From Oscillospiraceae bacterium (GTDB lineage Bacteria; Bacillota; Clostridia; Oscillospirales; Oscillospiraceae): 57,180 bases of DNA. Position 1 is the stretch's first letter; each line of letters opens with the position of its first letter. Below the pieces are notes generated by a model. The model saw only the letters and a program-made list of their open reading frames with translations. It was not told where the DNA came from and did not search any database. Positions 2,819-16,861 of this stretch are shown here, in pieces. The stretch lies in assembly GCA_902795045.1 (NCBI GenBank), contig CADBJU010000006.1, positions 1 through 57,180 of the forward strand, written 5' to 3'. Position numbers and translations under genes: made by a program.

Positions 2819-3424
2819 ATGAAAAAAGATGAACTCGCACGGGCTGTATTGGCCGAAAAAGGCGGCATAGCAAAAACGGCTGACTTTGTCGCTGCCGGCG
2901 TTTCAAAGCCCGATCTCACAGAATTGAACAGACTTGGCATCATAGAGAGGATACGCCACGGATTTTATCAGCTTCCTGGAGAAACCGAGATTTCTGAGGC
3001 GCAGTATCTTTCTGCCTTGCTCCCGGAGGCGATTGTGTCCGTGGAGTCTGCGCTTTTCCATTATGGCTACAGCGATTTTGCGCCCAGGGTATGGACGCTT
3101 TCTGTGCCGCGTTCTCTTTCACCGGCAAAGCTGAAATTTGACGTAGTGCCGGTCAAGCTGTTTTATGTCATGCAGGATATTTTTGCGCTTGGGAAAACCT
3201 CGGACGATTTTGACGGTACGGAACTATCCGTATATGACCGCGAGAGAACAATCTGTGATTGTTTTAAGTATCGTTCCAAGCTGGACAGCGAGACTTTTAA
3301 TAAAGCTGTCAATGCGTATGTTGCCGATGACCAAAAAAATCTGAGCAATCTGTCCCAGTACGCCAAAACGCTTCAGGTTTATAACAGGGTAATGAGTTTG
3401 ATGGAGGTAATGCTCAATGGCTGA
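2819..3424 (+). CDS. abiEi: AbiEi-family antitoxin (type IV toxin-antitoxin)
   Basis: Antitoxin and transcriptional repressor half of an AbiE system, 201 aa from ATG 2819 (an upstream in-frame start at 2804 has no better ribosome site). The N-terminal winged helix (about residues 1-60: ARAVLAEKGGIAKTADF, then LNRLGIIERIRHGFYQLPG) is the DNA-binding part. The C-terminal domain holds the family-typical SVESALFHYGYSD and YDRERTICDCFKYRSKLD stretches. In known AbiE systems this protein represses its operon and opposes AbiEii without binding it. The stop overlaps the start of abiEii by 8 nt, which indicates coupling. The gene is intact although its partner is frameshifted. A diverged second copy of its 3' end occurs at 17.07-17.17 kb. 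Confidence 0.87.
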   Translation: MKKDELARAVLAEKGGIAKTADFVAAGVSKPDLTELNRLGIIERIRHGFYQLPGETEISEAQYLSALLPEAIVSVESALFHYGYSDFAPRVWTLSVPRSLSPAKLKFDVVPVKLFYVMQDIFALGKTSDDFDGTELSVYDRERTICDCFKYRSKLDSETFNKAVNAYVADDQKNLSNLSQYAKTLQVYNRVMSLMEVMLNG

Positions 3425-3827
3425 TATGGGAGCCTCGGTACTGGCAAGGCTGAAAAACAAAGCCGCAGAGACTGGCAGAAGCAATCAGCTGTGCTTGCAG
3501 CTGTTTTGTCAGGAAGAATTTTTGCGCCGTTTGGAGAAATCCAGATATGCAGAAAACCTTGTTTTGAAGGGCGGGCTGTTCCTCTATACACTCACGAATT
3601 TTGACAGCCGCGTTACGATGGATGTGGATTTTCTGCTGAGGCAGATGCCAAATACTCCGGAACAGCTTCGTTCTGTATTGGAAGAAATAATCGCTGCCGA
3701 AACAGACAACGACTTCATTGCATTTGAAATCAAAATATTGCCCCAATAGCCATTGCGAAAAAATACGCCGGTATCGGTGCCTCCCTCATTGGAAGGATCA
3801 AGAACACGCGCACCGCAAAAACGTAGA
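3417..3827 (+). pseudogene. abiEii: AbiEii-like nucleotidyltransferase toxin, frameshifted and truncated
   Basis: N-terminal part of an AbiEii-type nucleotidyltransferase toxin. The start overlaps abiEi. The motif region is clear: LVLKGGLFLYTLTNF and RVTMDVDFLLR, matching the GG and (R)xTxDxDF core of the MNT fold (about residues 45-75). At about 3730 the frame breaks. The first frame ends at 3749, while the +1 frame continues as IAPIAIAKKYAGIGASL and GRIKNTRT until a stop at 3825-3827. The missing C-terminal half is the part preserved in the second remnant at 17.2 kb. The toxin is therefore presumably inactive. Cause (indel in an A-rich stretch) and fate are inferred. Confidence 0.8.
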
Positions 3828-3957
3828 CGCCTATATTGACCTTCACTACGGCGACGGCTATGAGACGCTTGTCCCTTTCTGCTGCTATCTGGGTGCTACA
3901 CCCGCTGAGGAAACGGCAAAGCGGATGGTGGAATGCGTCAACGTGAAATACAACGTG
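3817..3957 (+). pseudogene. Unidentified gene fragment joined to abiEii
   Basis: After the abiEii break, an open reading in another frame gives AYIDLHYGDGYETLVPF and a segment with ATPAEETAKRMVECVNVK. It has no start or ribosome site of its own and runs straight into repeat copy 1. It looks like an internal piece of a protein brought in by recombination. I do not recognise the family. Confidence 0.4.
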
Positions 3958-4085
3958 CGCTCCCGCTGCCGGGATCATTTCGTTTTGATTGAGTCCGTTA
4001 TGAACGCTCGGACCCCCAAACGCGCAAAATCCGAACCGGTTCTTCCCTGTGGGAGACGGGTTCGGATTTTGTGTTTTCCTCGGGT
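3958..4085 (+). repeat. Direct repeat, copy 1, with terminator hairpin
   Basis: About 125 bp shared with copies at 15992-16147 and 17577-17700 (core: CTGCCGGGAT, TTTGATTGAGTCCGTTATGAAC, then the hairpin). This copy carries the best hairpin: AAAATCCGAACC at 4026-4037 pairs perfectly with GGTTCGGATTTT at 4059-4070, with an inner TTCCC/GGGA stem and a TTTTGTGTTTTCC tail. It looks like a gene's 3' end plus its terminator, duplicated around the island. Confidence 0.75.
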
Positions 4086-4330
4086 AATTCCAAGTTTCCG
4101 CGTATCATACTATTTTTCAATAAAAAGCAGATTCTTTTATTGAAAAGGCGCCGCCCCCTCTGTGCGAAAGCACAGAGGACGTCTCATACAGTTTCCGACG
4201 CTCTGACGCGCTAATGACTATATGATGGCAAAACGCTGTAAGGCGTTCCGCCGAGCAGCTTTGCTGCTCGGCGCGACAACAGGGCTGCTGCGTCCTATAT
4301 TCATTGCAATGAGCGTCGAGGGAAGGATCA
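4086..4330. other. Hairpin-rich spacer downstream of the RiPP transport operon
   Basis: No gene is seen. Two perfect hairpins stand out: CCTCTGTGC (4157-4165) with GCACAGAGG (4170-4178) around a GAAA loop, and CGCCGAGCAGC (4249-4259) with its complement at 4263-4273 around TTT. Neither is followed by a T-run on the minus strand, so they are not standard terminators; they may still slow decay or stop transcription leaving the exporter operon (inference). Confidence 0.5.
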
Positions 4331-6514
4331 TTATAAGAGCTGGTACTGCACCAGTTTGGTAAATTCTCCGTTCCTTGCAAGCAGTTCGTCATAGCTCCCC
4401 TCTTCGATGATCCGGCCCTTGTCGAGCACCAGGATGCGGTCGCAGTCCCGGATTGTGCTCAGGCGGTGGGCAATGACGATGCGGGTACAGTGCAGATTGT
4501 CCAGCGCGTCGGTTACCTTCTTCTGCGTCACATTGTCCAATGCGGATGTCGCTTCGTCCAGAATCAGGATGGACGGTTTCTGCGCGATGACACGGGCGAT
4601 GAGCAGGCGCTGCTTCTGCCCGCCGGAAATTGTTACAGCGTCATCCGAGAGGATCGTCTGCATTCCGAGCGGCATAGCCCGTATATCGTCGGCCAGGCCC
4701 GCGGACTCCGCCGCCTCCCACGCCTCTTCCTCTGTCAGATCGGGCCGCGAGATGGCAATGTTCGTAAACACGTTTCCGGAGAAGATCCTGCCCTGCTGCA
4801 GCACGGCCCCGATCTGCCGCCGGACGGCCGCGCTGTCCAGGTGGAGCAGGTTTTCGCCGTCATAGTAGACCGCGCCGGTCTGCGGCTGCTCAAAGCCCAG
4901 CAGCAGGCGCACAAGGGTGGATTTGCCGGAGCCGGAGCTGCCCACGATGGCCAGATACTCCCCGGGCTTCACCTGCATGCTCAGGTGATCCAGCACCAGG
5001 GGCGCGGTTTCACCATAGCGGAAGGACACCTCCTTGAGGGCGATGGCCCCGCTGAGCTTTCCCGGGTCCCGCCCGGCAGACGAGATCTCGGGAACCTCCT
5101 CCAGGATCGGTTTCAGCAGCAGCAGGATCGGGCGAATGGCCGCGATCTGGGAACCCAGGCCGCTCAGTTGGCCGATGGCCGTGTTGCTCATGCTGTAGGC
5201 CGCGAAGAAATAGATGAAGAGATCATCGCTCAGGCCGATCCGGAGGGCCATCCAGAAAAGCAGCGCCATCCCGAAAAGGCCCGCGGCGGGACCGAGGGCG
5301 TTTTGCAGCTTCACGAAAAGCGGCGGGCGAAACTCCGCGTCCGCCTGGCGGTGGTAGGCCTCCATAAAGCGGGCCAGCACCCGCGACTCAGCGTTCGCGT
5401 TCTTCACCTCGGCGATGCCCCACAGGGTGTCGAGCGCCCGCTCGTTCGTCTCCATCTGCCCGCGCAGGCGGTCCATGGCGTTACGGACCTGGCCCAGTAC
5501 GCCGAGCAGCTGCAGCACAAGCTGGATGCCCAGCACCAGCAGGGCAGGGCCGATCATCCGGGGAGCGGCGGTCCTCAGCTCAAGCACGTATACCAGGGAC
5601 AAAAGCGCTGCCAGGCCTGTGGAGAAAAAGAGGGAGCAGAGCACCGTGCATAAGGGCTCCACCAGATTCAGGCTGCCGTAAATGTTGGCCGTCTTGTTTT
5701 TGCGGAAAAACTCAACCGGCAGATCCAGCACGCGCGCGAATAGCGAGCTCTGCAGAAACAGGCTCATCTTCTGGCTGACGCGCGCAACCGCTCGCGCCTG
5801 CACGACCGAGAAGAGATACTTGGAAACGGCGCAGCCCAGGAGAAAGACCATCAGCGAGAAGATAAGCTCGGCGTTGCCGGAGGGGATGACCAGCGTCATC
5901 ATCCACTTGCTTGCGATCGGATAGTAAATGCCGAGCAGGATCACCGCCACGGCGCACATCAGGATCAGGATGCGTTCGCCGCCGGAGACGCAGCTCATCA
6001 TAAACATGAGCAGCTCCTTCAGGCTCAGCCTGGTCTGGGGCGGGGAGCGATAATAGAGCACGGCCTCGCGCTCGATCCCGGCGCTGTTTTTCCTGTCAAC
6101 ATGGACAAGCTCCCCGCTCGAGGGGTCATTGTAGTAATAGTGCCCGTAATTTCCGGGCAGCAGCGTCGTGGTAACGCCGCTTTTGAGCCTGCACAGATAC
6201 GGCCCGAAGGCATTTTTCTCCCAGCCGCGAGAGAGCAGGCACACGCGGGACATGATACCGTTTTTGCGCAGCAGATCCTCCACATACTCTTCGTTTCCGA
6301 TGCGGTCCGGGTGAAAAGCCGGGGTGGAAATGCCGTAAAAGGTGCAGATCTCACGCAGCGCGAACGCGCGGTCACGGGACCGGTCGCTGCTTTTCTCCCG
6401 ATCCTCGGACGCGCCGTGGGCGGTGACGCCGAGAAGCTTGTTCTCCGCGTTCTCCAGGCGTTCGGCGTCGGCCTGCTGTCGGTGCAGGATTCGCTCCTTC
6501 CAGTTGTCGCTCAT
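4331..6514 (-). CDS. RiPP/bacteriocin export ABC transporter, second subunit (NHLP ABC2 type)
   Basis: 727-aa ABC half-transporter of the kind paired with NHLP/Nif11 bacteriocin exporters. The first ~165 residues form a soluble N-terminal domain with no C39 catalytic Cys. A block of about six membrane helices follows (about 175-450, beginning LLMFMMSCVSGGERILILMC). The C-terminal ATPase has Walker A GSSGSGKST, signature ISGGQKQRL, Walker B ILILDEATSALD and the switch His in IAHRLST. The start at 6514 has AGGGGGC upstream, and only 10 nt separate it from the peptidase-bearing transporter, so the two are one operon and probably one heterodimer in the membrane. The N-terminal domain presumably binds leader or adaptor without cutting it (inference from family architecture). 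It is the last gene of the arm. Confidence 0.9.
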   Translation of the reverse strand: MSDNWKERILHRQQADAERLENAENKLLGVTAHGASEDREKSSDRSRDRAFALREICTFYGISTPAFHPDRIGNEEYVEDLLRKNGIMSRVCLLSRGWEKNAFGPYLCRLKSGVTTTLLPGNYGHYYYNDPSSGELVHVDRKNSAGIEREAVLYYRSPPQTRLSLKELLMFMMSCVSGGERILILMCAVAVILLGIYYPIASKWMMTLVIPSGNAELIFSLMVFLLGCAVSKYLFSVVQARAVARVSQKMSLFLQSSLFARVLDLPVEFFRKNKTANIYGSLNLVEPLCTVLCSLFFSTGLAALLSLVYVLELRTAAPRMIGPALLVLGIQLVLQLLGVLGQVRNAMDRLRGQMETNERALDTLWGIAEVKNANAESRVLARFMEAYHRQADAEFRPPLFVKLQNALGPAAGLFGMALLFWMALRIGLSDDLFIYFFAAYSMSNTAIGQLSGLGSQIAAIRPILLLLKPILEEVPEISSAGRDPGKLSGAIALKEVSFRYGETAPLVLDHLSMQVKPGEYLAIVGSSGSGKSTLVRLLLGFEQPQTGAVYYDGENLLHLDSAAVRRQIGAVLQQGRIFSGNVFTNIAISRPDLTEEEAWEAAESAGLADDIRAMPLGMQTILSDDAVTISGGQKQRLLIARVIAQKPSILILDEATSALDNVTQKKVTDALDNLHCTRIVIAHRLSTIRDCDRILVLDKGRIIEEGSYDELLARNGEFTKLVQYQLL

Positions 6515-6524
6515 GCTTGCCCCC

Positions 6525-8675
6525 TCACTGCGATGAGACCAGGGTGTAATAGCTCCCCTGCTGTCTCATCAGCTCGTCGTGTGTGCCCTGCTCGACAATT
6601 TTCCCGCCTGACAGCACGATGATCCTGTCGCAGTCGCGCACGGTGGAGAGTCTGTGCGCCACGATGATCGTGGTGATGCCGCGCGCCTTGATGTTCTCCA
6701 TGATTCTATGCTCGGTCACGGCGTCCAGCGCCGAGGTCGCCTCGTCCAGGATCAGCACCTTCGGATTTCGGACCAGGGCGCGCGCGATCGTGATGCGCTG
6801 GCGCTGACCGCCGGAGAAGTTCTTTCCGCCGGAGCGGACCAGATAGTCGTAGCCGCCCGAATGCATCAGGATATCCTCTTCGATGCAGGCCTCCCGGGCA
6901 GCCCGGGAGATCTCCGGACCGGGGATCCTGCTGTCCCAGAGGCAGATGTTGTTGCGCGCGGTCGCCTCAAAGAGCGTGCTTTCCTGGCTCACGACCGCCA
7001 CACTGTCAGCAAAGAGGGATTTCGGCAGCTTGAAGCGGTCCACCCCGTCATACAGCACCTCCCCCGACCAGGGGAGCACCGCGCCGGTCATGAGCTTTGC
7101 AACGGTGGATTTGCCCGAGCCGGACGCCCCCACGAAGGCCACGCGCTGGCCCGGCTCGATTTTGAAGGAGAAATCATCCAGCAGCGGCGGGCCCAGATGC
7201 GTATAGCCGAAGGTGACGTGCCGAAACTCGACGCCTCCCTGCAGGGGGGCAAGCGTTGTGTCCGCTTCCATGGCGCTGAGCGGGAAGGCCTTGTCCTCCT
7301 TATAGCACCTTACGTCCTCCACCTTCTGGATGGAGCTTGCAAGCTCCCGGGTGTTCCGGCTGACCTGCGCCAGCTCCTGGGCCGGGGCCGTCAGCTTCTG
7401 GATCAGGGTCTGCAGTACGAGGATGAGGCCCACGGTGGTCCTGCCGTGGATGATGGACCAGGCGGCCACGGCCAGCACCAGGGCGTTTGTCAGATCCAGC
7501 AGGAAAACCGAGAGCCCGGTCAGATAGACCGAGACGTCGTTTTCCCTGGTTTTGCCCTCGTTGACCTCCGCCTGCTGGCTGGCCCAGCGGGCGAAATACC
7601 CGTTGGCCACGCCCGAGGACTTGATGGTCTCGATCATGTCGATGCCCGAGATCATGATGGCGTCCATGCGCATCTTGCTGTTCATGCGCTGCTGCTGCGA
7701 CTGAAGCGTGAAGCGGGCCAGGAACCAGGCCGCGAAGACATTGACGCAGAGCGCAAAGCCCCCCAGGAAGGCCGCATGGAGGTTCAGGGCCAGGAGCGCC
7801 GCGAAATAGATCACCACCATCACAAGCTGGATCGCCGTCGGCGTGATCCTGCGCACCAGAAGCTCGGCAATGGTGGAATTCATCGTGAGCCTTGAGATCA
7901 GATCCCCGGCGGAGCGCTGCTGGTAGAACTCAATGGGAAGCCTCAGCAGGTGCGCGAAGAACGCCGTGTTCGTCCGGATCGACATGTCACCCTGTATCCG
8001 ATAAATATACATTTCGCGCAGAATATCCGCGACAAGCTCGACCGCGCCCAGAAGCAGGAGCAGGAGGAAAAACTGCCCCTGCCAGCCCTGCCGCCCCTCC
8101 AGGATCATATCGGTGAAGATCCTCTGAAATACGGGGATCATCAGCCCCGTGAGCGATACCGCGAGCGCGTCCAGCGCCAGAAACAGCAGGCCCGAGCGGT
8201 ATTGCCGCGCCCTCTCGCGCAGATAGCCGACGACCGTGGGCGCCTTTCCGTCCCGCACGAAGTTCTCCCCGGGGCTGAACTCCAGCACGATGCCGGTAAA
8301 GCTCCTGTTGAATTCCTCCATGCTGACGGTGATTTCGCCGCGGCCCGGGTCGTTGAGATAGGCCTTGTTTCTGCCGAAGCCGCGCAGCACCACGAAATGC
8401 GCCATGTTCCAGTGGATGATGCAGGGGAAGTGCGCCTTCTCCATCACGCTCTCCACCGACCAGCGATAGCCCTGGGCGGTCATGCCGTAGTTCTCCGCCG
8501 CGCTGACAATGTTGGACGCGCGCGACCCGTCCCGGGATACGCCGCAGTCCCGGCGTACCTGCTCGAGAGGCACATATTTCCCATAATAGGCCAGAATCAT
8601 CGCAAGCGAAGCCGCCCCGCATTCGACGTACTCCATCTGCATGATCAGCGGTACCTTTACATGTGAATATTTCAT
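6525..8675 (-). CDS. C39 peptidase-containing ABC exporter for GG-leader peptides (PCAT type)
   Basis: 716-aa bifunctional exporter. Residues 1-135 are a C39 papain-like peptidase: catalytic Cys19 in VECGAASL, His in NMAHFVVLRGF (about 93) and Asp in LNDPGRGE (about 109). It should cut after the double glycine of the precursor leader. Six membrane helices follow (about 155-440). The ATPase has Walker A GASGSGKST, signature FSGGQRQRI, Walker B VLILDEATSALD and AHRLST. All catalytic residues are present, so processing and export look functional. It matches the NHLP-system peptidase/permease/ATPase family. It is the only C39 enzyme in the window, so it could also process the second GG peptide at 16.4-16.65 kb. 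An 18-nt gap to the HlyD gene upstream indicates a shared transcript. Confidence 0.94.
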   Translation of the reverse strand: MKYSHVKVPLIMQMEYVECGAASLAMILAYYGKYVPLEQVRRDCGVSRDGSRASNIVSAAENYGMTAQGYRWSVESVMEKAHFPCIIHWNMAHFVVLRGFGRNKAYLNDPGRGEITVSMEEFNRSFTGIVLEFSPGENFVRDGKAPTVVGYLRERARQYRSGLLFLALDALAVSLTGLMIPVFQRIFTDMILEGRQGWQGQFFLLLLLLGAVELVADILREMYIYRIQGDMSIRTNTAFFAHLLRLPIEFYQQRSAGDLISRLTMNSTIAELLVRRITPTAIQLVMVVIYFAALLALNLHAAFLGGFALCVNVFAAWFLARFTLQSQQQRMNSKMRMDAIMISGIDMIETIKSSGVANGYFARWASQQAEVNEGKTRENDVSVYLTGLSVFLLDLTNALVLAVAAWSIIHGRTTVGLILVLQTLIQKLTAPAQELAQVSRNTRELASSIQKVEDVRCYKEDKAFPLSAMEADTTLAPLQGGVEFRHVTFGYTHLGPPLLDDFSFKIEPGQRVAFVGASGSGKSTVAKLMTGAVLPWSGEVLYDGVDRFKLPKSLFADSVAVVSQESTLFEATARNNICLWDSRIPGPEISRAAREACIEEDILMHSGGYDYLVRSGGKNFSGGQRQRITIARALVRNPKVLILDEATSALDAVTEHRIMENIKARGITTIIVAHRLSTVRDCDRIIVLSGGKIVEQGTHDELMRQQGSYYTLVSSQ

Positions 8676-8693
8676 TTTCTGCGTCCTCGCTGC

Positions 8694-9218
8694 TCAGGGA
8701 TTGATCATAAGGACGATGGGCCGCACATGGTCGACAGTGATGACCGCCTCCACCAGATCTTCCTTCTGCAGGGGCGAATTCACCTTGACGGTGACATAGT
8801 AGTTGTAATCTGCTTTGGCAACCTCGTTAAAGACCCAGTCGCTCTCGATGATATTCGACATTTCCTCCTGGGAATGGGGCTTGTCCGAGACGCCGACCAC
8901 CTTGCCCCGAAGAATGCCGCCGTTGGGCTGGGTAACACGCACGTCATCCCCCTGATCTGTCTCATATGTCTGCATCTGCTGGGGCGTCAGGAAGAGGATA
9001 CACTCGTTCCCCGTGTTCGGGGCAAAGCCTTTGCACGACACCGTGACAGGCAGCTTGCCGGCAAAGGCCCAGATCAGAAAGGACAGCACCAGGATCAGCA
9101 CCGCCACGAGCGTCATCCACGGCATGAGGCGCGTTGCGCTTACATAGGGGCCGGTCTTGGTCTGCCGACTCAGCTGATCCATGCTCTCTCTGCGAAACAG
9201 GTTTTCACTATTTGCCAT
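8694..9218 (-). CDS. Short HlyD-like secretion adaptor
   Basis: 174-aa membrane-anchored protein. The N-terminus (ENLFRRESMDQLSRQ) resembles that of NHLP-system HlyD proteins; one membrane helix follows at about 33-54 (TLVAVLILVLSFLIWAFAG). A small extracellular beta-rich domain has GDDVRVTQPNGGILRGKVVG, like the lipoyl/barrel portion of HlyD adaptors. The long coiled-coil hairpin of ordinary HlyD proteins is absent, so this is a minimal version. AGGAGAGG precedes the ATG. It lies 18 nt from both neighbours in the export operon, so a role connecting the two ABC subunits to export across the Gram-positive wall is likely. The function is by family and context only. Confidence 0.75.
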   Translation of the reverse strand: MANSENLFRRESMDQLSRQTKTGPYVSATRLMPWMTLVAVLILVLSFLIWAFAGKLPVTVSCKGFAPNTGNECILFLTPQQMQTYETDQGDDVRVTQPNGGILRGKVVGVSDKPHSQEEMSNIIESDWVFNEVAKADYNYYVTVKVNSPLQKEDLVEAVITVDHVRPIVLMINP

Positions 9219-9236
9219 CGTAAGCCTCTCCTCTTA

Positions 9237-11168
9237 TCAGGCCGAGGCGGGAAGCGCCAGGGATATGCAGCGCCCGCCCAGCTTTGCCAGAACATTCAGC
9301 GCGGTGAGCTTTTCCACCGAGGCAAGGATCTCCTCGCCGCTCGCTTCCCCGCCCAGGGCGCTGAGAAGCTGCTTTTCCGTCTTCACCTCGTCGCAGGCGA
9401 GGTATACCGCCCTGTCCACCCCGGTCAGGAGGATGAAGGGCTGCACCATGCAGGGCCGCGAGTCCAGCAGCAGAAGCCCACTTTCGGTCTCGGCCATCAC
9501 AAGGCCGCGCTTTTCCCCGGACGCCGCGTTCCTTTTCCATTCATACACCGCCGTGTAGAGCCGGTTATACCAGGGCTGCATATGCTCCAGCGACGCCTGA
9601 AAAGCGCCGCCCGTCAGGCGGTAGTACATGCACATGCTCTCGACCCGGTCGTCGTTGTCGCCGTAGATGCAGCGGTATATCTCATACGGTTCGAGCTCCA
9701 GGCCGTACTGCGCCGGGTTTTCGAGGTAACGCGAATAGCGCTGGAACATGATCGGGAAGGTGCCCGTCGGCGGATGGAAGTGCACGAGCTTCGGGATGAG
9801 CTCGATCATCTCCTCGTAGTCCTCCTCCCGCTCGCCCGGCATGGCTATCAGCAGGTTCCAGGAAAGCCCCAGATTGTGCTTGCGGCAGTATTTCAGAAAG
9901 GCCACGTGGGAGGCGGCGTTGTTGCCCTTGTTCATCAGCTCCAGCAGGTGGTCGTTCAGGCTCTCGATGCCGGGCTGCACGATGCAGAAGCCCGCCTTCA
10001 CAAGCCGCTCGATGTCCCGCTCCTTCAGGTTCGTCTTGACCTCGCCGACGAGCTGCAGCTTCTCTCCGCTCTCAGCGAGCATGGGCAGGAGCTTTTCCAT
10101 CGCGTCAAAGCTCAGGATATTGTCCGTGAGCTGGATGAGCTGGTTATCGTATTTGCGGCTGAGCGCCAGGATCTCCTCATACAGGCGCCCGGCGCTCTTG
10201 TAGCGGTAGACGTTTTTGCGCCCATTCAGGCCGCAGAAGCTGCACGGGTGCTTCTGCCCCCACCAGCAGCCGCGCGAGCCCTCCAGGTACAGGGCGTAGT
10301 TTGCGCCCGACAGATAGAGCAGCTGCTTGTTTTCCTCGACAAACTCCGAGCCGAACATGGGCGGGCCGTACTCCCCCGCCTGCTCGCGCTCCCAGGCGTC
10401 GATAAAGTCGGAATAATCGGGATAGCAGACCCGGTTCATATCCTGCGTCATGCGGTGCGGGATCGGGTCGGGGATCTCCTCCCCGTGCCGGATCACGCCG
10501 TAGGGCATGGGGCCGGGCACGGCGCCCATGGCGATGCGGCAGACCTCGGCAAACACCTCGTCCCCCTCGCCGAAGAAGACGTAGTCCACGCTCGGATAAT
10601 GGCGCAGCACCGCCGCTCCCGCCTCGCCGGACACGTTGGTGCCGCCGAGGATCGTGGCGATCTCCGGCGCAAGCTCCTTGACGCGCCGGATGACGGCGAG
10701 CGCGCCGTTATTCTGCGAAAAGATGGTGCTGACCGCGAGCACGCCGGGCCGGGCCCGCACGATCTCCTGCGCAAGTTCCTCCACGCACTGCCGGGCCTTT
10801 TCCCTGGCATCGGCGATCAGCGCAAGCAGTTCCTCCACGGGATAGACCGGGTACTCCCGGCACACAAGCCGGGCAAAGGTCTCATCGTCGTATGTGTTTT
10901 CCGCGTCGGTCATGTGGGCGAAGAGGTACTCCTGCAGGCCTCCCGTATAGGGGATGGCGTCGATCTTCCTCGCGGTCTCGATGCCGAGCAGATGAGACAG
11001 GCGAAACATCGGGTAGAGGACGCGCGAGCGCATCCCCGCCTCGTTCAGGCACTGCCGGAAGATCGACAGCGCGATCGACGGGCGCGGCGGAAAATCGTAT
11101 GGCGGGGACAGCAGGACGACGTCAAGCCGCTCTTCTTCGCTGGGGTTCTTGTGCAGTTCGGAACTCAT
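9237..11168 (-). CDS. B12-binding radical SAM RiPP maturase (rSAM_ocin_1 / C-methyltransferase family)
   Basis: 643 aa from ATG 11168, which has GGAGGAGAG upstream (the frame is open further 5' but through the terminator hairpin). Residues about 15-210 form a cobalamin-binding-like Rossmann domain (VVLLSPPYDFPPRPSI; later GVLAVSTIF, ILGGTNVSGE and YVFFGEGDEVF). The radical SAM core follows, with a CX7CX2C cluster motif at Cys301, Cys309 and Cys312 (GSRGCWWGQKHPCSFCGLNG). The spacing and the CWWG...FCGLNG signature are those of the RiPP maturation radical SAM protein 1 family, whose members are proposed or shown to C-methylate peptide carbons. A C-terminal extension of about 150 residues may bind the leader (inference). 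It is the second gene of the minus arm, after the precursor. Expected role: methylation of unactivated carbons in the core peptide; other radical chemistry cannot be excluded. Confidence 0.9.
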   Translation of the reverse strand: MSSELHKNPSEEERLDVVLLSPPYDFPPRPSIALSIFRQCLNEAGMRSRVLYPMFRLSHLLGIETARKIDAIPYTGGLQEYLFAHMTDAENTYDDETFARLVCREYPVYPVEELLALIADAREKARQCVEELAQEIVRARPGVLAVSTIFSQNNGALAVIRRVKELAPEIATILGGTNVSGEAGAAVLRHYPSVDYVFFGEGDEVFAEVCRIAMGAVPGPMPYGVIRHGEEIPDPIPHRMTQDMNRVCYPDYSDFIDAWEREQAGEYGPPMFGSEFVEENKQLLYLSGANYALYLEGSRGCWWGQKHPCSFCGLNGRKNVYRYKSAGRLYEEILALSRKYDNQLIQLTDNILSFDAMEKLLPMLAESGEKLQLVGEVKTNLKERDIERLVKAGFCIVQPGIESLNDHLLELMNKGNNAASHVAFLKYCRKHNLGLSWNLLIAMPGEREEDYEEMIELIPKLVHFHPPTGTFPIMFQRYSRYLENPAQYGLELEPYEIYRCIYGDNDDRVESMCMYYRLTGGAFQASLEHMQPWYNRLYTAVYEWKRNAASGEKRGLVMAETESGLLLLDSRPCMVQPFILLTGVDRAVYLACDEVKTEKQLLSALGGEASGEEILASVEKLTALNVLAKLGGRCISLALPASA

Positions 11169-11230
11169 AGGACACTCTCCTCCCGGATATGAGGCAATAC
11201 CGCAGTCGTATTGTGCGGTGCTCCCTAAAG

Positions 11231-11287
11231 CAAAACCGGCAGCCGAAACCCGGCTGCCGGCAGTTGCGGGCAGGCTGCTTCCTGCCC
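11231..11287 (-). terminator. Leaky terminator between precursor and maturation genes
   Basis: Reading the minus strand after the precursor stop: first a GGCAGG/CCTGCC hairpin (11268-11287), then a perfect 10-bp stem CCGGCAGCCG / CGGCTGCCGG (11236-11260, 5-nt loop) followed by TTTTG. It would cap most precursor transcripts while letting some read through into the enzymes and exporters, a common stoichiometry device in RiPP operons (inference). Confidence 0.75.
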
Positions 11288-11300
11288 GGTGGACGAACAA

Positions 11301-11585
11301 TCAGCAGGTAGCGAGGGAAGAAACGGAAATGGTAACGCCCGCAGCAGGAACGATGGTGGCGACAGTGGGGGTGGTGCCGCCGGCGACCTCGTCGAGCTGG
11401 CTCTTGTCGAGCTTGCCCTCGGCAGCGTTGGCGTTGACGAAGGCCTTGAGCTCATCGACGGTGGCCTCGATGCCCAGCTCCTTCAGAACGGTCTCCAGGG
11501 GCTTGCCGCTCTTGGCAGCCTCGGCAACCTTTGCCTGCAGTTCGCTGTTGTTCGCAGCTTTTTCATAGAATTCTTTCAGTGTCAT
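11301..11585 (-). CDS. Nif11-leader RiPP precursor peptide
   Basis: 94-aa precursor peptide. Residues 1-70 are a Nif11-type leader (MTLKEFYEKAANNSELQAKV at the start, LKELGIEATVDELKAFVNA in the middle) ending with the double-glycine site LDEVAGG. Residues 71-94 are the core: it begins TTPTVATIVP and ends ISVSSLATC, with 6 Thr, 3 Ser, 2 Pro and a single Cys as the last residue. The ATG at 11585 has AAGGAG at good spacing; the longer in-frame start at 11624 lies upstream of that site and is rejected. A consensus promoter precedes it. The C39 exporter should cut after GG, LanM should dehydrate Ser/Thr, and the rSAM enzyme should modify carbons. With one Cys at most one thioether ring could form. 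The chemistry is inferred. Confidence 0.92.
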   Translation of the reverse strand: MTLKEFYEKAANNSELQAKVAEAAKSGKPLETVLKELGIEATVDELKAFVNANAAEGKLDKSQLDEVAGGTTPTVATIVPAAGVTISVSSLATC

Positions 11586-11677
11586 TGTATATGATCTCCT
11601 TTCCTCGGCCTGAGCCGAAATCAACTGTTTATCCGCCCTGAAAAAGCAGGGTTTGCTTCCTTCAATTACCGACTCCG

Positions 11678-11706
11678 ATTATAGCATTGCGTTTTTCCTC
11701 TGTCAA
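11678..11706 (-). promoter_or_regulatory. Consensus sigma-A promoter of the precursor/export operon
   Basis: On the minus strand: TTGACA (11701-11706), 17-bp spacer, TATAAT (11678-11683). Both hexamers match consensus exactly, predicting strong, possibly constitutive, transcription of the precursor. Confidence 0.85.
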
Positions 11707-11764
11707 TAATTACTTACTTTATGTTAAATAATCTTAATAAAAACACAAAAATGAACTGGAAATC

Positions 11765-11793
11765 TTGCGGTGAGCGTGTAAAAATGCTATAGT
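11765..11793 (+). promoter_or_regulatory. Promoter of the flavoprotein-LanM arm
   Basis: TTGCGG (11765-11770), 17-bp spacer, TATAGT (11788-11793). It is weaker than the divergent precursor promoter, fitting a catalytic rather than a substrate gene. The predicted start leaves a ~40-nt leader with GGAGGG. Confidence 0.65.
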
Positions 11794-11841
11794 GCCGTTG
11801 TGAATAAAAACTTACTCTGAAAAAACACGGAGGGATGCGAT

Positions 11842-12594
11842 ATGAAAATACTGGCGCTTGTATTCGCCTCGCGCCGGGAGGGCAAGTCTGTGACCCTGCA
11901 GGTGACGGAGGAGCTCTGCGGCCTGCTCCACGCGCGAAGCGCTGGGGCGGAGCTTGAGATCGTCACCATGAGCGAGCTGCCCGTGCTGTCCTGCGTCGGC
12001 TGCAAAACCTGCTTTCAGGAGGGCTTCTGCCCCCAGGACGGGGCGGACGGCATGGCCGCGCTCCGGCAAAAGCTCCGGGACTGCGACGCCTTGATCGCCG
12101 CGACGCCCGTATACATGTACTCGGTCAGCGGCTGGTGCAAGAATTTTCTGGACCGCTGCGCCCGCTGGTGCCATGTGTTCGAGCTGCTCGGAAAGCCCTG
12201 CGTGGCGCTCAGCGTGACCGGCCAGACCGGCGCGGCGCGCGCCTGCGACTATCTCTCCGAGTGTCTGGAGACCATGGGCTGCTGCGTCGCGGCGCGGCTT
12301 CCCATGCAGCGGCAGGGCGAGGGTCTTCTGGTCGGGAGCGAGGAAGCGCAGGCTGCCTTGTCGGAGGCCGCCGGGAAACTCCTGGACGCGGTCAGGCAGC
12401 CCGAAAACTATCTCTCCGAGCTTGCCGAGGCCCAATTTCAGACCCTGCTGAGAAGCTTCCGCAGTATTGAAACCTTCCGCACCCTCATGGGCCGGCGCTG
12501 CCCCGATGAGGTGGACACCTTCCGGCAGCGCGGCCTGATGAACTGCGCCTCCCTGCGCGAGGCGCTGCTGAAGAAAGGAGGGTCGGCCACATGA
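11842..12594 (+). CDS. Iron-sulfur flavoprotein / NADPH-dependent FMN reductase-like
   Basis: 250-aa flavodoxin-fold oxidoreductase. It starts KILALVFASRREGKSVTLQV, where the loop after the first strand binds FMN phosphate. The compact cysteine motif CVGCKTCFQEGFC (about residues 52-64) is CX2CX2CX5C, as in iron-sulfur flavoproteins. ATPVYMYSVSGWCKNFLDR (about 92-110) is the second flavin-binding loop. GGAGGG precedes the ATG, and the stop overlaps lanM as ATGA, so the two proteins are translationally coupled. In lanthipeptide pathways, flavin-dependent LanJ-type reductases hydrogenate dehydroalanine and dehydrobutyrine to D-amino acids; a similar role here is a context-based hypothesis. Alternatives are redox support for the radical SAM enzyme or a general quinone/FMN reductase. 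Confidence 0.85.
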   Translation: MKILALVFASRREGKSVTLQVTEELCGLLHARSAGAELEIVTMSELPVLSCVGCKTCFQEGFCPQDGADGMAALRQKLRDCDALIAATPVYMYSVSGWCKNFLDRCARWCHVFELLGKPCVALSVTGQTGAARACDYLSECLETMGCCVAARLPMQRQGEGLLVGSEEAQAALSEAAGKLLDAVRQPENYLSELAEAQFQTLLRSFRSIETFRTLMGRRCPDEVDTFRQRGLMNCASLREALLKKGGSAT

Positions 12595-15350
12595 GCAGGA
12601 CCCCTGAGAACACGGAAAACAGGCAGGCCCCTGAAGGACAGGCAGGGGATCTTTTCGATTTTCTTCGCCCCATGGCGGAGGACGAGGTGCGCGCGATCTC
12701 GCGGCTGCCGGATCTCCCGATGCGGGAAGCAGCTATGCTCGGGCAGGATCTCCTGTTCCGCCGTCTGAAGGATCTCGCGGAGCCGACTGTGCAGGCGGCG
12801 TTGGAGGAAGCTCTTTGCCGCATCAACCCCGCCGTCCAGCTTTCGCCGCATTTTGCTTCAGACAGCGACCGTGCGCAGGCCCACGCCCAGACGCTTCAAC
12901 GCCTGTCGGCTCCCGGTGGGAATCCCTTTGAGCACTATCCTCTTCTCAAGCAGGACGCCAGCCGTGTCTGCGCAAACTTCCGCGCGTTTTTTACGACCTT
13001 CCTGCGCCGCGTGAGCGAATACGCTGGACAGATCGAGCGGGAGCTGCTGGAGGGCCGCAGCTTGGGCAGGCTCCTCTCACTCGGCGCCTCCGGGGCTGAC
13101 ATGCATCTTCACGGTCAGTGCGCCATGCGCGTTGTGTGTGAGGGCGGTGTGTTTTATTACAAACCCCGCGACAGCCGGCTCGATCTTCTCTATCTTCGGA
13201 TCGTGAAACGCTTCTGTTCTGAAGAAACCCTTGCGCCGCGCGCTGTGTGTGGCGAAGGTTTTGCCTTTATTGAATCCATGAAGACCGCGCCGGTACATAG
13301 CCTTGAGGATATTGCGCGGTATTACCGGCACTTCGGCGCGCTGACGGCGTTGTTCCGCTTCCTCGGCAGCTCCGACATGCATTTCGAAAACATCCTTGCC
13401 TGCGGCGTCTATCCGACCGCCATTGACATGGAAACGCTTTTTACGCCCGCCGCGGACCCTTATCAGGGCTGTGAAATCAGCTCGGTCGAAGAGATGAACG
13501 CGGTATGGAGGGACTTGATGTTTTCCGCGCAGAACACGCTGGTGTTCCCCATGATGCTGCAGGGCAAGGCGCAGATCAGCCCTCTGCTGCGCGGCGGGAC
13601 GGAGACCGCAAATTGTCTTCCGGTTCTGGAGGGGCGGCAGATTCCCATTTACGGATATGAGGACAGCTTCATGCAGGGCTTTGCGCGCATGTATGACCGC
13701 CTGCTTTCTCGGCGCGGCGAGCTTGCGGGAATGGTGCGTGAGGCGGAAAGCATGAGCGCCCGCTTTGTCCTGCGGGCCTCGGCCTATTACGCATTGACGC
13801 TGCACGAGCTGCATTCCCCCGCGGGCTGCGCCTCAAGCGAGGCGCGTGAAAAGATTCTGGCAGACCTGAACAGGCACTTTGAAAAAGCGCCGGAATATCT
13901 GCCGGTGGTACAATGGGAACGCGCCTGTCTTGAGGAGGGCGACATCCCCTATTTTTCATTCCGCGCCGGTCATGGCAGCCTGTATGGGGACTCGCGGGGC
14001 GAGATTCTGATGGACGATTACTTCCACATGACGGCCACCGAGCACTGCTTCCAAACGCTGGAGCATTCCGGACCGGAGGAGAAGCGTTTTGAGCTGGATT
14101 ACATTCGGCGGCGTCTTTATCAGGGACCTGATTATTCGTCTGCGCCGCAGGCTGTGCTGCCCGAGACGGAGCCGCTTCCGCTCTCTGCCGATCAGGCCCG
14201 CGCCGAGGCGCGCAGAATCCTCGGAGACATGGAGAATATGGCCTTGAAGCTGACCGACGGTAGCCGGATTCTGCTGAGTGCGGATCATCATCTTGTCCCG
14301 ACCCATCACCCAAATTTCGAACGGGGTCTGCCCGGCATGAGCGTTTTTTTTGACCGCGCCGTGAAGACCGCCGCCCTCGGCTGTGAAGCGCAGGCGCTGC
14401 GTCTTCTCGAGGATACGAAGGAAGATCTTCTGCGATCGAGAAGAACCTATCGTCAAATGAGCGAAACTTTCCGCGCCGTTCTGCATCCGGGCCTGCGCAA
14501 GGGTGTGGGAGGACTGCTGCTTTCCCCCTGCATGGACGCGGCGGGAATTGAAGACATCATAGAAAGCTTAAAGCTGACAAGCCGGAGCTTTGATGAAGAG
14601 AACGCCGGCCTATACGCCGGGATCGGCGGGCTTCTTCTCGGCTGCATTGCGGCGGCAGAGCGAGTCGGGTATGAGGGAGCGCCAAAGTCGCTCCTGCAGC
14701 TCATCGAGCGCCTGAATCCTCTCGTGATTGCGCGGGTGGATAAGCCTGGTCAGGTTTCCGGACTCGGAAAGGGCATGTCAGGCACAGGTCTTGCACTGGT
14801 ACAGAGCTTCCGTCTCACCGGCAATGCGGATTGCCTGAAAGCTGCGGAAAAAGCGTTCCGGTTTGAGAACGCGCAGTATCGCAAGCTGCTGGACGGCTGG
14901 CCGAATTATGAGAAGTCATCCTTTCCTGTCATCCGCGGCGAGGGACTGGAGGCCGGTGCGCCGGGAATCGCCTTTGCCGCGGCTTTGTGCGAAGAGACTG
15001 TGCCCGCCGCTACCGAGCTTGTGGACAGGGCCCTTGCGTGTACGCTTTCGCTGCCGTTTCTTGAAACGGATGATCTGGCCTGCGGCAACGCGGGCATCGC
15101 CCTGGCGCTGACCGCGGCAGCCAGCCGCCGGGAAAGCCCGGCCCTTCTGCGTGCGGCGGGCGTGCGGCTTGCCCGGTCTGCCAGCAGGGCGCAGCGGGAC
15201 GGCGGCTATCGCTCTCTCCCGCTGCGCTTGCGCAACGTCCCCGATCCTTCCTTCTGGCGCGGCATCGCCGGCATCGCTTACGCCATGCTGGTCTATGCGG
15301 ACGCGCTGGAATCTCCGACTCTGCATGCTTATCCTGTTTTTTATTGCTGA
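12591..15350 (+). CDS. LanM-type (class II) lanthipeptide synthetase with degenerate cyclase
   Basis: 919 aa, full length for LanM. The N-terminal dehydratase keeps the kinase-like residues: Asp170/His172 (GADMHLHG), Lys191 (YYKPRD), Asp262/His264/Asn267 (SDMHFEN) and Asp279/Glu281 (IDMETLF). In the elimination motif Arg391 is present, but the usual Thr is Ser397 (RFVLRAS). The C-terminal LanC-like domain keeps the fold (LYAGIGGLLLG, GAPGIAFA, CGNAGI, FWRGIAGIAYA) but has lost its chemistry: the WCxGAPG cysteine is Glu787, the CCG pair is Ala830-Cys831, and the HG histidine is Lys727. Only one of three zinc ligands remains. Expected activity: phosphorylation and elimination of core Ser/Thr without enzyme-driven thioether closure. 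It overlaps the flavoprotein gene by 4 nt. Family assignment is strong; the cyclase loss is read directly from the codons. Confidence 0.93.
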   Translation: MSRTPENTENRQAPEGQAGDLFDFLRPMAEDEVRAISRLPDLPMREAAMLGQDLLFRRLKDLAEPTVQAALEEALCRINPAVQLSPHFASDSDRAQAHAQTLQRLSAPGGNPFEHYPLLKQDASRVCANFRAFFTTFLRRVSEYAGQIERELLEGRSLGRLLSLGASGADMHLHGQCAMRVVCEGGVFYYKPRDSRLDLLYLRIVKRFCSEETLAPRAVCGEGFAFIESMKTAPVHSLEDIARYYRHFGALTALFRFLGSSDMHFENILACGVYPTAIDMETLFTPAADPYQGCEISSVEEMNAVWRDLMFSAQNTLVFPMMLQGKAQISPLLRGGTETANCLPVLEGRQIPIYGYEDSFMQGFARMYDRLLSRRGELAGMVREAESMSARFVLRASAYYALTLHELHSPAGCASSEAREKILADLNRHFEKAPEYLPVVQWERACLEEGDIPYFSFRAGHGSLYGDSRGEILMDDYFHMTATEHCFQTLEHSGPEEKRFELDYIRRRLYQGPDYSSAPQAVLPETEPLPLSADQARAEARRILGDMENMALKLTDGSRILLSADHHLVPTHHPNFERGLPGMSVFFDRAVKTAALGCEAQALRLLEDTKEDLLRSRRTYRQMSETFRAVLHPGLRKGVGGLLLSPCMDAAGIEDIIESLKLTSRSFDEENAGLYAGIGGLLLGCIAAAERVGYEGAPKSLLQLIERLNPLVIARVDKPGQVSGLGKGMSGTGLALVQSFRLTGNADCLKAAEKAFRFENAQYRKLLDGWPNYEKSSFPVIRGEGLEAGAPGIAFAAALCEETVPAATELVDRALACTLSLPFLETDDLACGNAGIALALTAAASRRESPALLRAAGVRLARSASRAQRDGGYRSLPLRLRNVPDPSFWRGIAGIAYAMLVYADALESPTLHAYPVFYC

Positions 15351-15374
15351 AGTTTTCCCATCGCATCGTTATTA

Positions 15375-15408
15375 CAGGCAGCCGCTACCGGTGGCTGCCT
15401 GTTGCTTT
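15375..15408 (+). terminator. Terminator after lanM
   Basis: CAGGCAGCC (15375-15383) pairs with GGCTGCCTG (15393-15401), followed by TTGCTTTG. It sits 25 nt past the lanM stop. Confidence 0.7.
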
Positions 15409-15419
15409 GTCGTTGGACT

Positions 15420-15791
15420 TCAGCAGTAAATGAACTCGTCCGATACGATCTCTTCTGCACGGTTCCTGATGTTGTTCATGCGCCGGACCCACTCCATCTG
15501 GTTCTCATCCTTGAGCTGTTCTGTGACGCCTTCTGTCCTGGCCATTTGCGTAATCAGGACGTCAAGCTGGCCGCTGGCCTGAGCATCAATTTCCCGCAAG
15601 TAATCATACAGTTTGCCGGTGGTGAGAAGATTGGTAAACGTGACGCGGCGGTTTCGTTTCAGCCATCGCAGATGCCGCTGGCCCCAAATTCCGACAACTG
15701 GCTTCTCATCATCTTCCCCAGCGATCACATAGTAATCACCCTGCAGCTCATATTGCAAACTTGTTCTTTCATCTGTCTTGTATTGGTTCAT
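15420..15791 (-). CDS. tnpV: Transposon-encoded protein TnpV
   Basis: 123-aa accessory protein of clostridial transposable elements. The family pattern is clear: VGIWGQRHLRWLKRNRRVTF, LLTTGKLYDYLREIDAQA, EGVTEQLKDENQMEWVRRM and NNIRNRAEEIVSDEFIYC, over the family's usual length. The biochemical role of TnpV is not established. AAGGAG precedes the ATG, and the gene follows a 48-aa gene by 10 nt, so they form a pair. It is convergent with lanM and marks the right side of the RiPP cluster as mobile DNA. Confidence 0.88.
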   Translation of the reverse strand: MNQYKTDERTSLQYELQGDYYVIAGEDDEKPVVGIWGQRHLRWLKRNRRVTFTNLLTTGKLYDYLREIDAQASGQLDVLITQMARTEGVTEQLKDENQMEWVRRMNNIRNRAEEIVSDEFIYC

Positions 15792-15801
15792 AGTACACTC
15801 C

Positions 15802-15948
15802 TTATCCCGCCATTTTCAAGATGATCTCATCAACTGTATCGGTGTATCTGCCCTGGGCGATCAGCTTGCTGCGCATTTCGTTCAGCGCCAGCAGCATCAC
15901 CCGCCATTCGGTATCGGTCAGATACAGATATCTTTTCGTTGTTCTCAT
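15802..15948 (-). CDS. 48-aa protein upstream of tnpV
   Basis: Small protein starting MRTTKRYLYLTDTEWRVMLL and ending TVDEIILKMAG, with a helical, charged middle (NEMRSKLIAQGRYTD). An excellent ribosome site (AAAGGAGGTCG) precedes the ATG at 15948, and it is spaced 10 nt from tnpV, so the pair is probably co-transcribed. No catalytic motif or membrane segment is seen. The TDTEWRVM and TVDEII pattern hints at a small helical DNA- or protein-binding unit; the function is unknown. Confidence 0.75.
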   Translation of the reverse strand: MRTTKRYLYLTDTEWRVMLLALNEMRSKLIAQGRYTDTVDEIILKMAG

Positions 15949-15991
15949 ATCGTTCGACCTCCTTTGAGTCCATTGTAGAGCAAGGCTTTCA

Positions 15992-16147
15992 AGAAATCGA
16001 ATGTACCGATGAAAAAGTTTGGAATATGTGTGCCCACTGCCGGGATTATTTCATTTTGATTGAGTCCGTTATGAACACTCGGACCAAACGCACAAAATCC
16101 GGACCGGTTCTTCCCTGTGGGAGACGGGCTCGGATTTTGTGTTTTCT
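15992..16147 (+). repeat. Direct repeat, copy 2
   Basis: Same ~125-bp unit as at 3958-4085, in the same orientation, extended leftward by ATCGAATGTACCGATGAAAA, which is shared with copy 3 only. The hairpin AAAATCCGGACC...GCTCGGATTTT (16094-16138) is less perfect than in copy 1. Copies 1 and 2 are ~12.07 kb apart and bracket the RiPP genes and tnpV. Confidence 0.75.
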
Positions 16148-16232
16148 TTGGGTATGAGTATTACAGAAACGGCGTAAAGCGCAAAACCGAGCCTCAGGAT
16201 AAAACCAAGGAAAGGATTCGGAGGTAAAGATT

Positions 16233-16406
16233 ATGCGAAAACTGATTTCTTGCAAGTATCACGAGGATTCCCAGACCGTGGAGTTGCTGTACACCGATGG
16301 CACGCTGATCGGCATTGACTGCATGGCCGTCGAGGACGAAGTCGCCCGCAACATGTACGAGCGCTCAGAGCTGGACTATCTGCTCGATAATGACCCGGTA
16401 GGCTAA
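16233..16406 (+). CDS. 57-aa conserved small protein (DUF6061-like)
   Basis: Starts MRKLISCKYHEDSQTVELLY and ends RSELDYLLDNDPVG. A strong ribosome site (GGAGGTAAAG) precedes the ATG. From memory it resembles the DUF6061-type small proteins carried by clostridial mobile elements; family members I recall are longer at the C-terminus, so this copy may be truncated. A beta-strand/helix mix and an acidic tail are seen; no known activity. It lies between repeat copy 2 and the second GG peptide. Confidence 0.68.
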   Translation: MRKLISCKYHEDSQTVELLYTDGTLIGIDCMAVEDEVARNMYERSELDYLLDNDPVG

Positions 16407-16437
16407 TCTCCTTTGTTTTTTATATATTTGATTGATG

Positions 16438-16653
16438 TTAGTTTCTGGAATTGAGGTAGTCAATGAGCGTGGTAAACTCATCTTCCGGACTTACCTGCTG
16501 GCCCATAGGACCCGGTTCAGGCTTCGGCTCCGCCGGTTCTTGCGGCGCGGCAGGCGGATCATAATGATGACCCGGATGCAGAATGGGCACACCGCCGGCA
16601 ACCTTTTCTTTTTCCACTTCATTGAGTTCTCTCATATTTTCAATGTTCTTCAT
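16438..16653 (-). CDS. Double-glycine leader peptide, bacteriocin-like (orphan)
   Basis: 71-aa peptide. The leader MKNIENMRELNEVEKEKVAG plus Gly21 matches the class II bacteriocin / double-glycine pattern (ELNExEKxKVxGG). The 50-residue remainder is Pro- and Glu-rich, starts VPILHPGHHYDPPAAPQEP, has no Cys and ends LIDYLNSRN. AAAGGAG lies at good spacing upstream of ATG 16653; a -10-like TATACT lies further upstream, but without a convincing -35. It does not look like Nif11. The only C39 exporter in the window is at 6.5-8.7 kb, so shared processing is possible. It could be a linear bacteriocin, a signal peptide, or a RiPP precursor that has lost its own enzymes. Confidence 0.68.
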   Translation of the reverse strand: MKNIENMRELNEVEKEKVAGGVPILHPGHHYDPPAAPQEPAEPKPEPGPMGQQVSPEDEFTTLIDYLNSRN

Positions 16654-16810: not shown

Positions 16811-16861
16811 ACAAGATGATAGATCCTGTCCTCCTTTTGCCTATGTCCAACTGGATGTATT

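Follow-up and report, generated by a model that had tools for sequence, protein, structure and literature searches.

What becomes of the dehydrated residues of a peptide when the LanM enzyme of its pathway lacks the zinc site of the cyclase domain and no stand-alone cyclase is found beside it? This question is raised by a block of about 11 kb in DNA of an Oscillospiraceae bacterium, a gut dweller and probably one of the rumen (assembly GCA_902795045.1, contig CADBJU010000006.1, positions 1 to 57,180; this whole stretch of 57,180 nucleotides is called the window below). In an annotation made from the letters of the DNA (the sequence-only reading), a Nif11-leader precursor, a B12-type radical S-adenosylmethionine (SAM) enzyme, an iron–sulfur flavoprotein, a cyclase-dead LanM and two ATP-binding cassette (ABC) exporters had been placed at 4331..15408. 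We found all genes named there, with family matches, within 4331–15350, and among them a short HlyD-like protein that it does not mention; the start of the claimed extent is right and its end overshoots the LanM gene by 58 bases. The block is a genuine, conserved cluster for a ribosomally synthesized and post-translationally modified peptide (RiPP) and the sister of the published buv cluster. We give an even chance to the following reading: a buv-type, class II lanthipeptide-like pathway that has no separate cyclase and carries a flavin mononucleotide (FMN) flavoprotein overlapping LanM, by which a reduction has likely been added. What sets the locus apart is that no stand-alone cyclase was found while the flavoprotein is present, a pairing that the sequence-only reading had not singled out.

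Gene content and relatives of the cluster

The cluster consists of two divergent arms. On the minus strand, transcription runs from the precursor gene (11301..11585; 94 residues; TIGR03798 32.5 bits, cut-off 32.3; PF07862 24.2, cut-off 23.8) to a B12-binding radical SAM enzyme of the rSAM_ocin_1, RiPP C-methyltransferase type (9237..11168; TIGR03975 505.6 bits, cut-off 281.85; PF02310, PF04055), a short HlyD-like export accessory protein of 174 residues (8694..9218; TIGR03794 30 bits, over 38 residues of 421 positions), a C39 peptidase–ABC exporter (6525..8675; TIGR03796 828 bits, cut-off 853; PF03412, PF00005, PF00664) and a second, NHLM-type ABC permease/ATPase (4331..6514; TIGR03797 619 bits, below the cut-off of 709). 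On the plus strand, an FMN_red flavoprotein that is a candidate dehydroamino-acid reductase of LanJB-like type (11842..12594; PF03358 85.9 bits) overlaps by 4 nt a LanM made of a DUF4135 dehydratase and a zinc-less LanC-like domain (12591..15350; TIGR03897 302.4, cut-off 304; PF13575 200.3; PF05147, LANC_like, 46.4). The radical SAM enzyme and the precursor thus score above their NCBIfam cut-offs, and both exporters and, by 1.6 bits, LanM score below. Upstream of the precursor lies a putative minus-strand promoter (11678..11706; TTGACA-17-TATAAT with TG before the second hexamer), a match to the consensus at 12 of 12 positions, one such site being found against a shuffle mean of 0.5 (sd 0.7). 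A terminator-like hairpin (11235..11261, minus strand; 12 pairs, 9 of them G-C) separates the precursor from the radical SAM gene; such sites are hardly commoner in this region (two) than in shuffled sequence (mean 1.2, sd 1.2), and a similar hairpin 3′ of the precursor was seen by eye in the relatives L046, L047 and L048. A plus-strand open reading frame (ORF) at 8727–11192, antisense to the radical SAM and HlyD genes, was rejected as a high-G+C by-product.

Relatives were sought among named genomes with an alignment of the radical SAM enzyme (A2), which matched 592 stretches, 557 of them confirmed; the best 80 of these gave 75 loci, and more relatives may exist. Their gene content was read by BLAST with the window proteins only, so that unlike precursors are missed, and ORF starts outside the window were set mechanically. 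The neighbourhood check proposed with the sequence-only reading, for Nif11 peptides beside LanM and rSAM_ocin_1, returned both LanM-like and Nif11-like ORFs in at least seven of the 75 loci (L046–L050, L059 and L064). Three of them, L046 (RUG13571), L047 (RUG13116) and L048 (RUG282), from metagenome-assembled genomes (MAGs) of three species presumably of rumen origin given their RUG prefix, hold the complete set of seven gene types, arranged as in the window, with the L048 LanM split between two frames. As this seven-gene order recurs, the cluster is not a chance assembly. Short HlyD proteins of 170–174 residues occur throughout L046–L050.

TIGR03975 proteins above the cut-off occur in 1 of 400 family genomes (the source genome itself), 3 of 391 in the class set and 7 of 299 in the phylum set, each including that genome, and the LanM profile (A4, at E 1e-40) is matched in 3 of 400 family genomes, again including it, and in 1 of 291 class genomes, which is the source genome. 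LanM alone as a query gave no match against genome contigs. Among plasmids, the radical SAM enzyme matched 67 records, all below 60% identity, and LanM 71 records, none with 80% coverage; among phages the radical SAM enzyme had no match.

Two further loci, L049 (a Lachnospiraceae MAG) and L050 (Butyrivibrio sp. VCD2006), share a Nif11 precursor, a zinc-less LanM, a radical SAM enzyme, a short HlyD and a C39-ABC exporter and add a stand-alone LanC; the second ABC gene is present in L050, and the L049 contig ends there. In the LanM tree, the proteins of the window, L046, L047 and L048 are joined with those of L049 and L050 at 99/99. L050 is the buv cluster: the leader printed in a figure legend of the accessible part of PMC10831782 is identical to the L050 leader. 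Under the name LanII-21, that text describes the radical SAM enzyme BuvX, the LanM BuvM, the cyclase BuvC and the precursor BuvA.

Do both arms act on one precursor, as the sequence-only reading assumed? They are divergent and the genome has two further Nif11 precursors, so each arm might serve a different one, with a single arm acting on the window peptide. We regard this as most improbable. The arms stay together in L046–L048; in L050 the precursor, LanM, radical SAM, HlyD and both ABC ORFs are codirectional, with overlapping LanM and radical SAM ORFs (as far as mechanically set starts allow), and buv is published as one cluster in the available text of PMC10831782; and the other two precursors lie with a separate gene set on another contig, C9. 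The assumption of one pathway with one precursor thus holds up well.

The dead cyclase domain and the ring motif

The dehydratase half of LanM looks intact. The roles of CylM residues in phosphorylation and elimination, and its zinc ligands Cys, Cys and His, are set out in the part of PMC4550811 at hand. CylM D252, H254, K274, D347, H349, N352, D364 and R506 correspond to D170, H172, K191, D262, H264, N267, D279 and R391 of the window protein, and all eight are invariant in the six LanMs of alignment A4. The predicted dehydration of Ser and Thr is consistent with these residues. Of the four elimination residues, D170, H172 and R391 are kept and the fourth, CylM T512, is S397, a Ser shared by all five rows of alignment A3 (window, L046, L047, L049, L050) and replaced by Thr in both LanM proteins of contig C9.

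This substitution bears on whether the enzyme only phosphorylates, leaving a phosphopeptide as EmbM of phospeptin does; EmbM is a LanM-like enzyme with a Nif11 substrate and no zinc cyclase (PMC9505594, as far as its available text goes), and Ser397 stands in the window clade where CylM has its eliminating Thr512. The counterparts of D252, H254 and R506 are kept, though, and Ser retains the hydroxyl. BuvM has the same Ser, yet co-expression of BuvA, BuvM, BuvC and BuvX in E. coli produced a single DL-lanthionine, which the accessible text of PMC10831782 places in a C-terminal ring of five members, stating no role for BuvX beside that result; lanthionine needs elimination. A phosphopeptide as the end product is therefore very improbable. 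The co-expression gives experimental support, with BuvC present, to dehydration by this type of LanM and to closure of an S-x-x-x-C ring.

The LanC-like domain, by contrast, has lost the zinc site, and in that sense the sequence-only reading was correct in calling the cyclase dead. In a motif-based alignment with LanC proteins and the zinc-type LanM of L073, the positions of the three ligands are occupied by E, A, C in the window, L046 and L047 and by E, A, L in L048, so that two ligands are missing and the remaining Cys has given way to Leu in L048; the same positions hold E, I, E in the L049 LanM and E, L, N in BuvM. All three are Cys in the LanMs of two family members, G196 and G057, and in the stand-alone LanCs of L049 and L050. 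The His of the HG motif (SGLGHGM in the L050 LanC), which we take to be catalytic, is Lys or Arg in the window, L046, L047 and L048. Eight zinc-less LanM proteins were compared, three of them from the source genome; a single origin of zinc loss that includes the C9 proteins has weak tree support (56/74). The domain is not decaying and is under purifying selection: by Nei–Gojobori counts on single pairs (own script), dN/dS between the window and L047 is 0.195 for the dehydratase part and 0.216 for the zinc-less part, next to 0.201 for the radical SAM enzyme and 0.346 for the flavoprotein, and between the window and L046 it is 0.208 and 0.240 for the two LanM parts; the core peptide, with only 22–25 codons, is a small sample for such counts. 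The domain is probably kept as a structural part of the dehydratase. In carnazolamide biosynthesis a zinc-less cyclase domain is required for dehydration, according to the text available of PMC10676384, so that zinc-less LanM cyclase domains had already been described.

No other cyclase was seen. In the source genome, which is 92% complete, the one LANC_like match listed is the LanM's own domain, and a BLAST search whose queries included the L050 LanC found no LanC in loci L046–L048, taken with about 10 kb on each side.

The substrate itself keeps the buv ring motif. The precursor has a 70-residue leader ending in VAGG and a 24-residue core, TTPTVATIVPAAGVTISVSSLATC, which the window shares with L046; its only NCBIfam match at E 0.01 is TIGR03798, the Nif11 leader, with no match to a nitrile-hydratase-like leader. 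The other cores are TTPTTVATVIPAAGVLISVTSA in L047, TTPTIATVVPAAGVTISISSAATC in L048, TTPTISTVVPAAGAGISVASLAAC in L049 and TTPVTTITTVGVAVGTYSLAAC in L050. All six begin with TTP, and five end in S-x-A-x-C; the L047 core has neither the motif nor any Cys. In the window the motif is S20-L-A-T-C24, with the spacing of the buv motif S-L-A-A-C, and the core is rich in Val, Ile and Thr.

As the core keeps the buv ring motif, a ring may still form. S20 would be dehydrated and C24 would add to it unaided or through the zinc-less domain, in the manner of class III enzymes, with the flavoprotein acting elsewhere on a true lanthipeptide with extra tailoring; the other steps of the favoured reading are compatible with this. 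We consider such a ring a serious possibility, though one held below even. The motif in the window, L046 and L048 is the site of the buv DL-lanthionine, and the zinc-less domain remains under selection. Class III cyclase domains function without zinc, and a zinc-independent cyclase domain is described in the portion of PMC10676384 to hand. On the other side, L047 keeps the other genes without the Cys and the motif, the HG-motif His is replaced, and the sister clusters with zinc-less LanMs have a LanC of their own, a hint that the zinc-less domain alone is not enough. The sequence-only claim of a product outside the classic lanthipeptides is accordingly unproved.

The flavoprotein and a possible reductive step

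The flavoprotein carries a CX2CX2CX5C motif (Cys51, Cys54, Cys57 and Cys63) that is kept in all five aligned flavoproteins. The motif stated for iron–sulfur flavoproteins (Isf) in the available part of PMC3164229 is CX2CX2CX5-7C; a phmmer search with the window protein listed seven matches, with no chain named Isf among them. Of the sequence-only label, the FMN_red family and the Cys motif stand, whereas the iron–sulfur part comes from the motif, and a [4Fe-4S] cluster is putative. LanJB enzymes belong to the NADPH-dependent FMN reductase family (PMC7268733, in the text accessible). The window protein fits LanJB by family (PF03358) and by its place in a class II cluster, which makes reduction of dehydroalanine (Dha) and dehydrobutyrine (Dhb) a candidate role. 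The dN/dS of the flavoprotein against L048 is 0.207. We weighed aminovinylcysteine formation because the core ends in Cys, and dropped a LanD-type enzyme as its agent: the flavoprotein matches FMN_red and Flavodoxin_2, with no LanD-type family listed.

A second Nif11 cluster lies in the same genome on contig C9 (31109–45238, locus L125). It has two Nif11 precursors with cores starting TSCI, a zinc-less LanM of 899 residues overlapping a flavoprotein of the same kind, a LanM-like protein of 651 residues, an ACGX-type SPASM radical SAM enzyme (TIGR04340) whose ORF overlaps the other end of the flavoprotein, and a short HlyD, a C39-ABC and a second ABC gene. It looks like a two-component RiPP cluster.

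Flavodoxin-like and iron–sulfur flavoproteins can carry electrons, and both flavoprotein clusters of this genome hold a radical SAM gene, whose ORF overlaps that of the flavoprotein on C9; the protein might thus serve to activate the radical SAM enzyme by donating electrons and be no peptide reductase at all. Four observations make this improbable. The window flavoprotein overlaps LanM, on the strand opposite to the radical SAM gene; L050, with the same type of radical SAM enzyme, shows no flavoprotein match in 21.9 kb; flavoproteins accompany two unlike radical SAM types; and none was found at 14 other loci of the C9 type, in the stretches examined of at most 1.5 kb on each side (two loci short, 3,424 and 2,444 bases). 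A regular partnership with the ACGX enzyme was dropped on that last result, and the flavoprotein seems to follow the zinc-less LanM, not the radical SAM enzyme.

The radical SAM enzyme has a C301-x7-C309-x2-C312 motif and a B12 domain (PF02310). A Cx7Cx2C motif is described for PoyC in the available text of PMC11285071. The C-methylase role that had been proposed from the letters fits this motif and the TIGR03975 family, and C-methylation is predicted on family grounds.

These parts suggest the following route. The precursor would be expressed from its own promoter. LanM, using the Nif11 leader, would phosphorylate Ser and Thr of the core and eliminate to Dha and Dhb, and its zinc-less LanC-like domain would no longer activate thiols. 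The flavoprotein would then reduce some of these residues to D-Ala and D-2-aminobutyrate (D-Abu), and the B12 enzyme would C-methylate unactivated carbons of the Val/Ile/Thr-rich core. Last, the C39 peptidase would cleave after Gly-Gly, and the ABC pair and the short HlyD would export the product. Dehydration of Thr1, if it occurs, would yield an enamine expected, by analogy with polytheonamide, to hydrolyse to a 2-oxobutyryl end.

Several points weigh against this route. The likeness to proven LanJB enzymes is one of family. The dN/dS of the flavoprotein against L046 is 0.98, on about 1% change, too small to judge. In L049 a LanC coexists with a flavoprotein nearer to the C9 one, some 4.3 kb away from the precursor, and no flavoprotein turned up in the stretches examined around the zinc-intact LanMs of G196 and G057, so that it is not a general LanM partner. 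The pattern of LanC without flavoprotein against flavoprotein without LanC rests on one or two events; S-x-A-x-C is kept in three of the four flavoprotein-type clusters, all but L047; and the lack of a cyclase holds for a genome at 92% completeness and, in L046–L048, for the loci with their flanks.

Gene content, residues, conservation and selection are read directly from the DNA; the use of the promoter, the reduction, methylation, cleavage and export steps, the role of the zinc-less domain and the absence of an enzymatic ring are inferred. Reduction of the product may replace ring closure or accompany it. We lean to reduction as an added step and give ring closure, whether enzymatic or spontaneous, a chance of about one in three. 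A stronger version is rather unlikely: that the lineage switched the fate of its dehydroamino acids from ring closure to hydrogenation, a cyclase having been lost or never gained and a LanM-coupled iron–sulfur flavoprotein having taken over, with the pseudo-cyclase domain kept for docking or for the dehydratase and a product that is linear, C-methylated, D-amino-acid-bearing and 2-oxobutyryl-ended. Such a switch would have its end point in L047, with its Cys-free core. If reduction does occur, dehydration–reduction chemistry extends to B12-radical SAM-tailored peptides of gut anaerobes.

Flanking DNA, other loci and known systems

DNA homology to L046, L047 and L048 (first 20 kb of the window) starts at 4332–4340 and ends at 15310, 15317 and 15304, respectively, close to the borders of the cluster. 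G+C is 47–49% at 1–4000 and 16001–18000 and 60–62% at 4001–14000. The left flank has a phage-type integrase (83–1084) and an AbiEi-like gene (2804–3424), and diverged copies of one repeat stand on both sides of the cluster (3962–4086, 16033–16154, 17618–17670). The low-G+C flanks (1–4330, 15351–18150), the integrase and the repeats are signs of a mobile or recombined region. A small plus-strand ORF at 17834–18111 may encode an HU-type DNA-binding protein, which it resembles. The last LanM codons and stop (15310–15350) lie beyond the end of homology, the relatives ending earlier and differently.

Between the window and L046, nucleotide identity is 96–100% over most of 6.4–12.4 kb, with a patch of 90–93% at 7.9–8.8 kb, and 75–87% over most of LanM, a mosaic. 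Although these are two species, the radical SAM protein is 99.8%, the precursor 99% and LanM 79% identical. The pattern is that of recent transfer with a swapped LanM allele.

Other loci show related gene sets. L059 (3134–16218) and L064 (9941–20614), both from Lachnospiraceae, combine Nif11 peptides with Thr/Ala-rich cores, LanM, a TIGR03975-type radical SAM enzyme and exporters; L059 also has a YcaO, for which it was checked, and the two are possibly Nif11 relatives of the dehydrazoles. At L131 (G057; 197–2310), a radical SAM gene and a zinc-intact LanM are preceded by a tandem array of five Nif11 precursors plus a sixth, short piece. In the 20 kb around TIGR03975 proteins at L035–L037, from two other Clostridia-class genomes, no LanM, Nif11 or flavoprotein match was found. 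At L035 and L036 (G534) the above-cut-off proteins adjoin ORFs of 1,000–2,900 residues that may be nonribosomal peptide or polyketide synthases, which they resemble, and the family name 'RiPP maturation' may not suit every member.

Is the pathway a known one? The sequence-only reading knew of none with exactly this set, which fails in part, since buv shares the Nif11 precursor, zinc-less LanM, radical SAM enzyme and exporters (as seen in L050). What stands is the cyclase-less set of Nif11 precursor, zinc-less LanM, B12-radical SAM enzyme and FMN flavoprotein, on which no paper was found in the open-licence literature, subscription journals being mostly uncovered. VCD2006 is absent from the main text of the Hungate1000 bacteriocin paper, and LanII-21 from that of the FAST-RiPPs paper, in the parts of each at hand.

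Several known systems share parts of the design. The polytheonamide proteusins (PoyF with PoyB and PoyC, from the texts accessible) likewise have a LanM-type dehydratase without a cyclase, a B12-radical SAM C-methylase with Cx7Cx2C and Thr1 in the core, but theirs is a nitrile-hydratase-like leader (NHLP) where Nif11 stands here; the cluster has one radical SAM gene, with no second one as an epimerase, and PoyF is a dehydratase domain alone, to which the cluster adds the zinc-less LanC-like domain and the flavoprotein. In the pathway of the dehydrazole carnazolamide (CcaM, LanMbC), a LanM dehydratase and a zinc-less cyclase domain form one protein, and the product has no lanthionine rings (accessible text of PMC10676384); this pathway differs in its NHLP leader, its YcaO azoles and a class III-like cyclase domain, and no YcaO match was found among the window cluster proteins scanned. 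Phospeptin (EmbA/EmbM; available text of PMC9505594) resembles the window in its Nif11 leader and in a LanM-like enzyme without a zinc cyclase; EmbM, which we know by description, only phosphorylates, whereas the window enzyme keeps three of four elimination residues with the fourth Thr changed to Ser. Compared with the LanJB enzymes BsjJB and CrnJ, to which the flavoprotein is likened by family and not by sequence, the Cys motif and the zinc-less LanM partner are features of the window; LanJB enzymes known so far serve ring-bearing lanthipeptides. The eight zinc-less LanMs form a natural set in which the remaining function of a dead cyclase domain can be studied. Closest is buv itself, with its Nif11 precursor, TTP core start, S-x-A-x-C end, zinc-less LanM, TIGR03975-type radical SAM enzyme, short HlyD, C39-ABC and second ABC gene. 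It has the stand-alone zinc-type BuvC and no flavoprotein in 21.9 kb, and the window has the reverse; with alike cores, the two make a pair for testing a change from ring closure to reduction.

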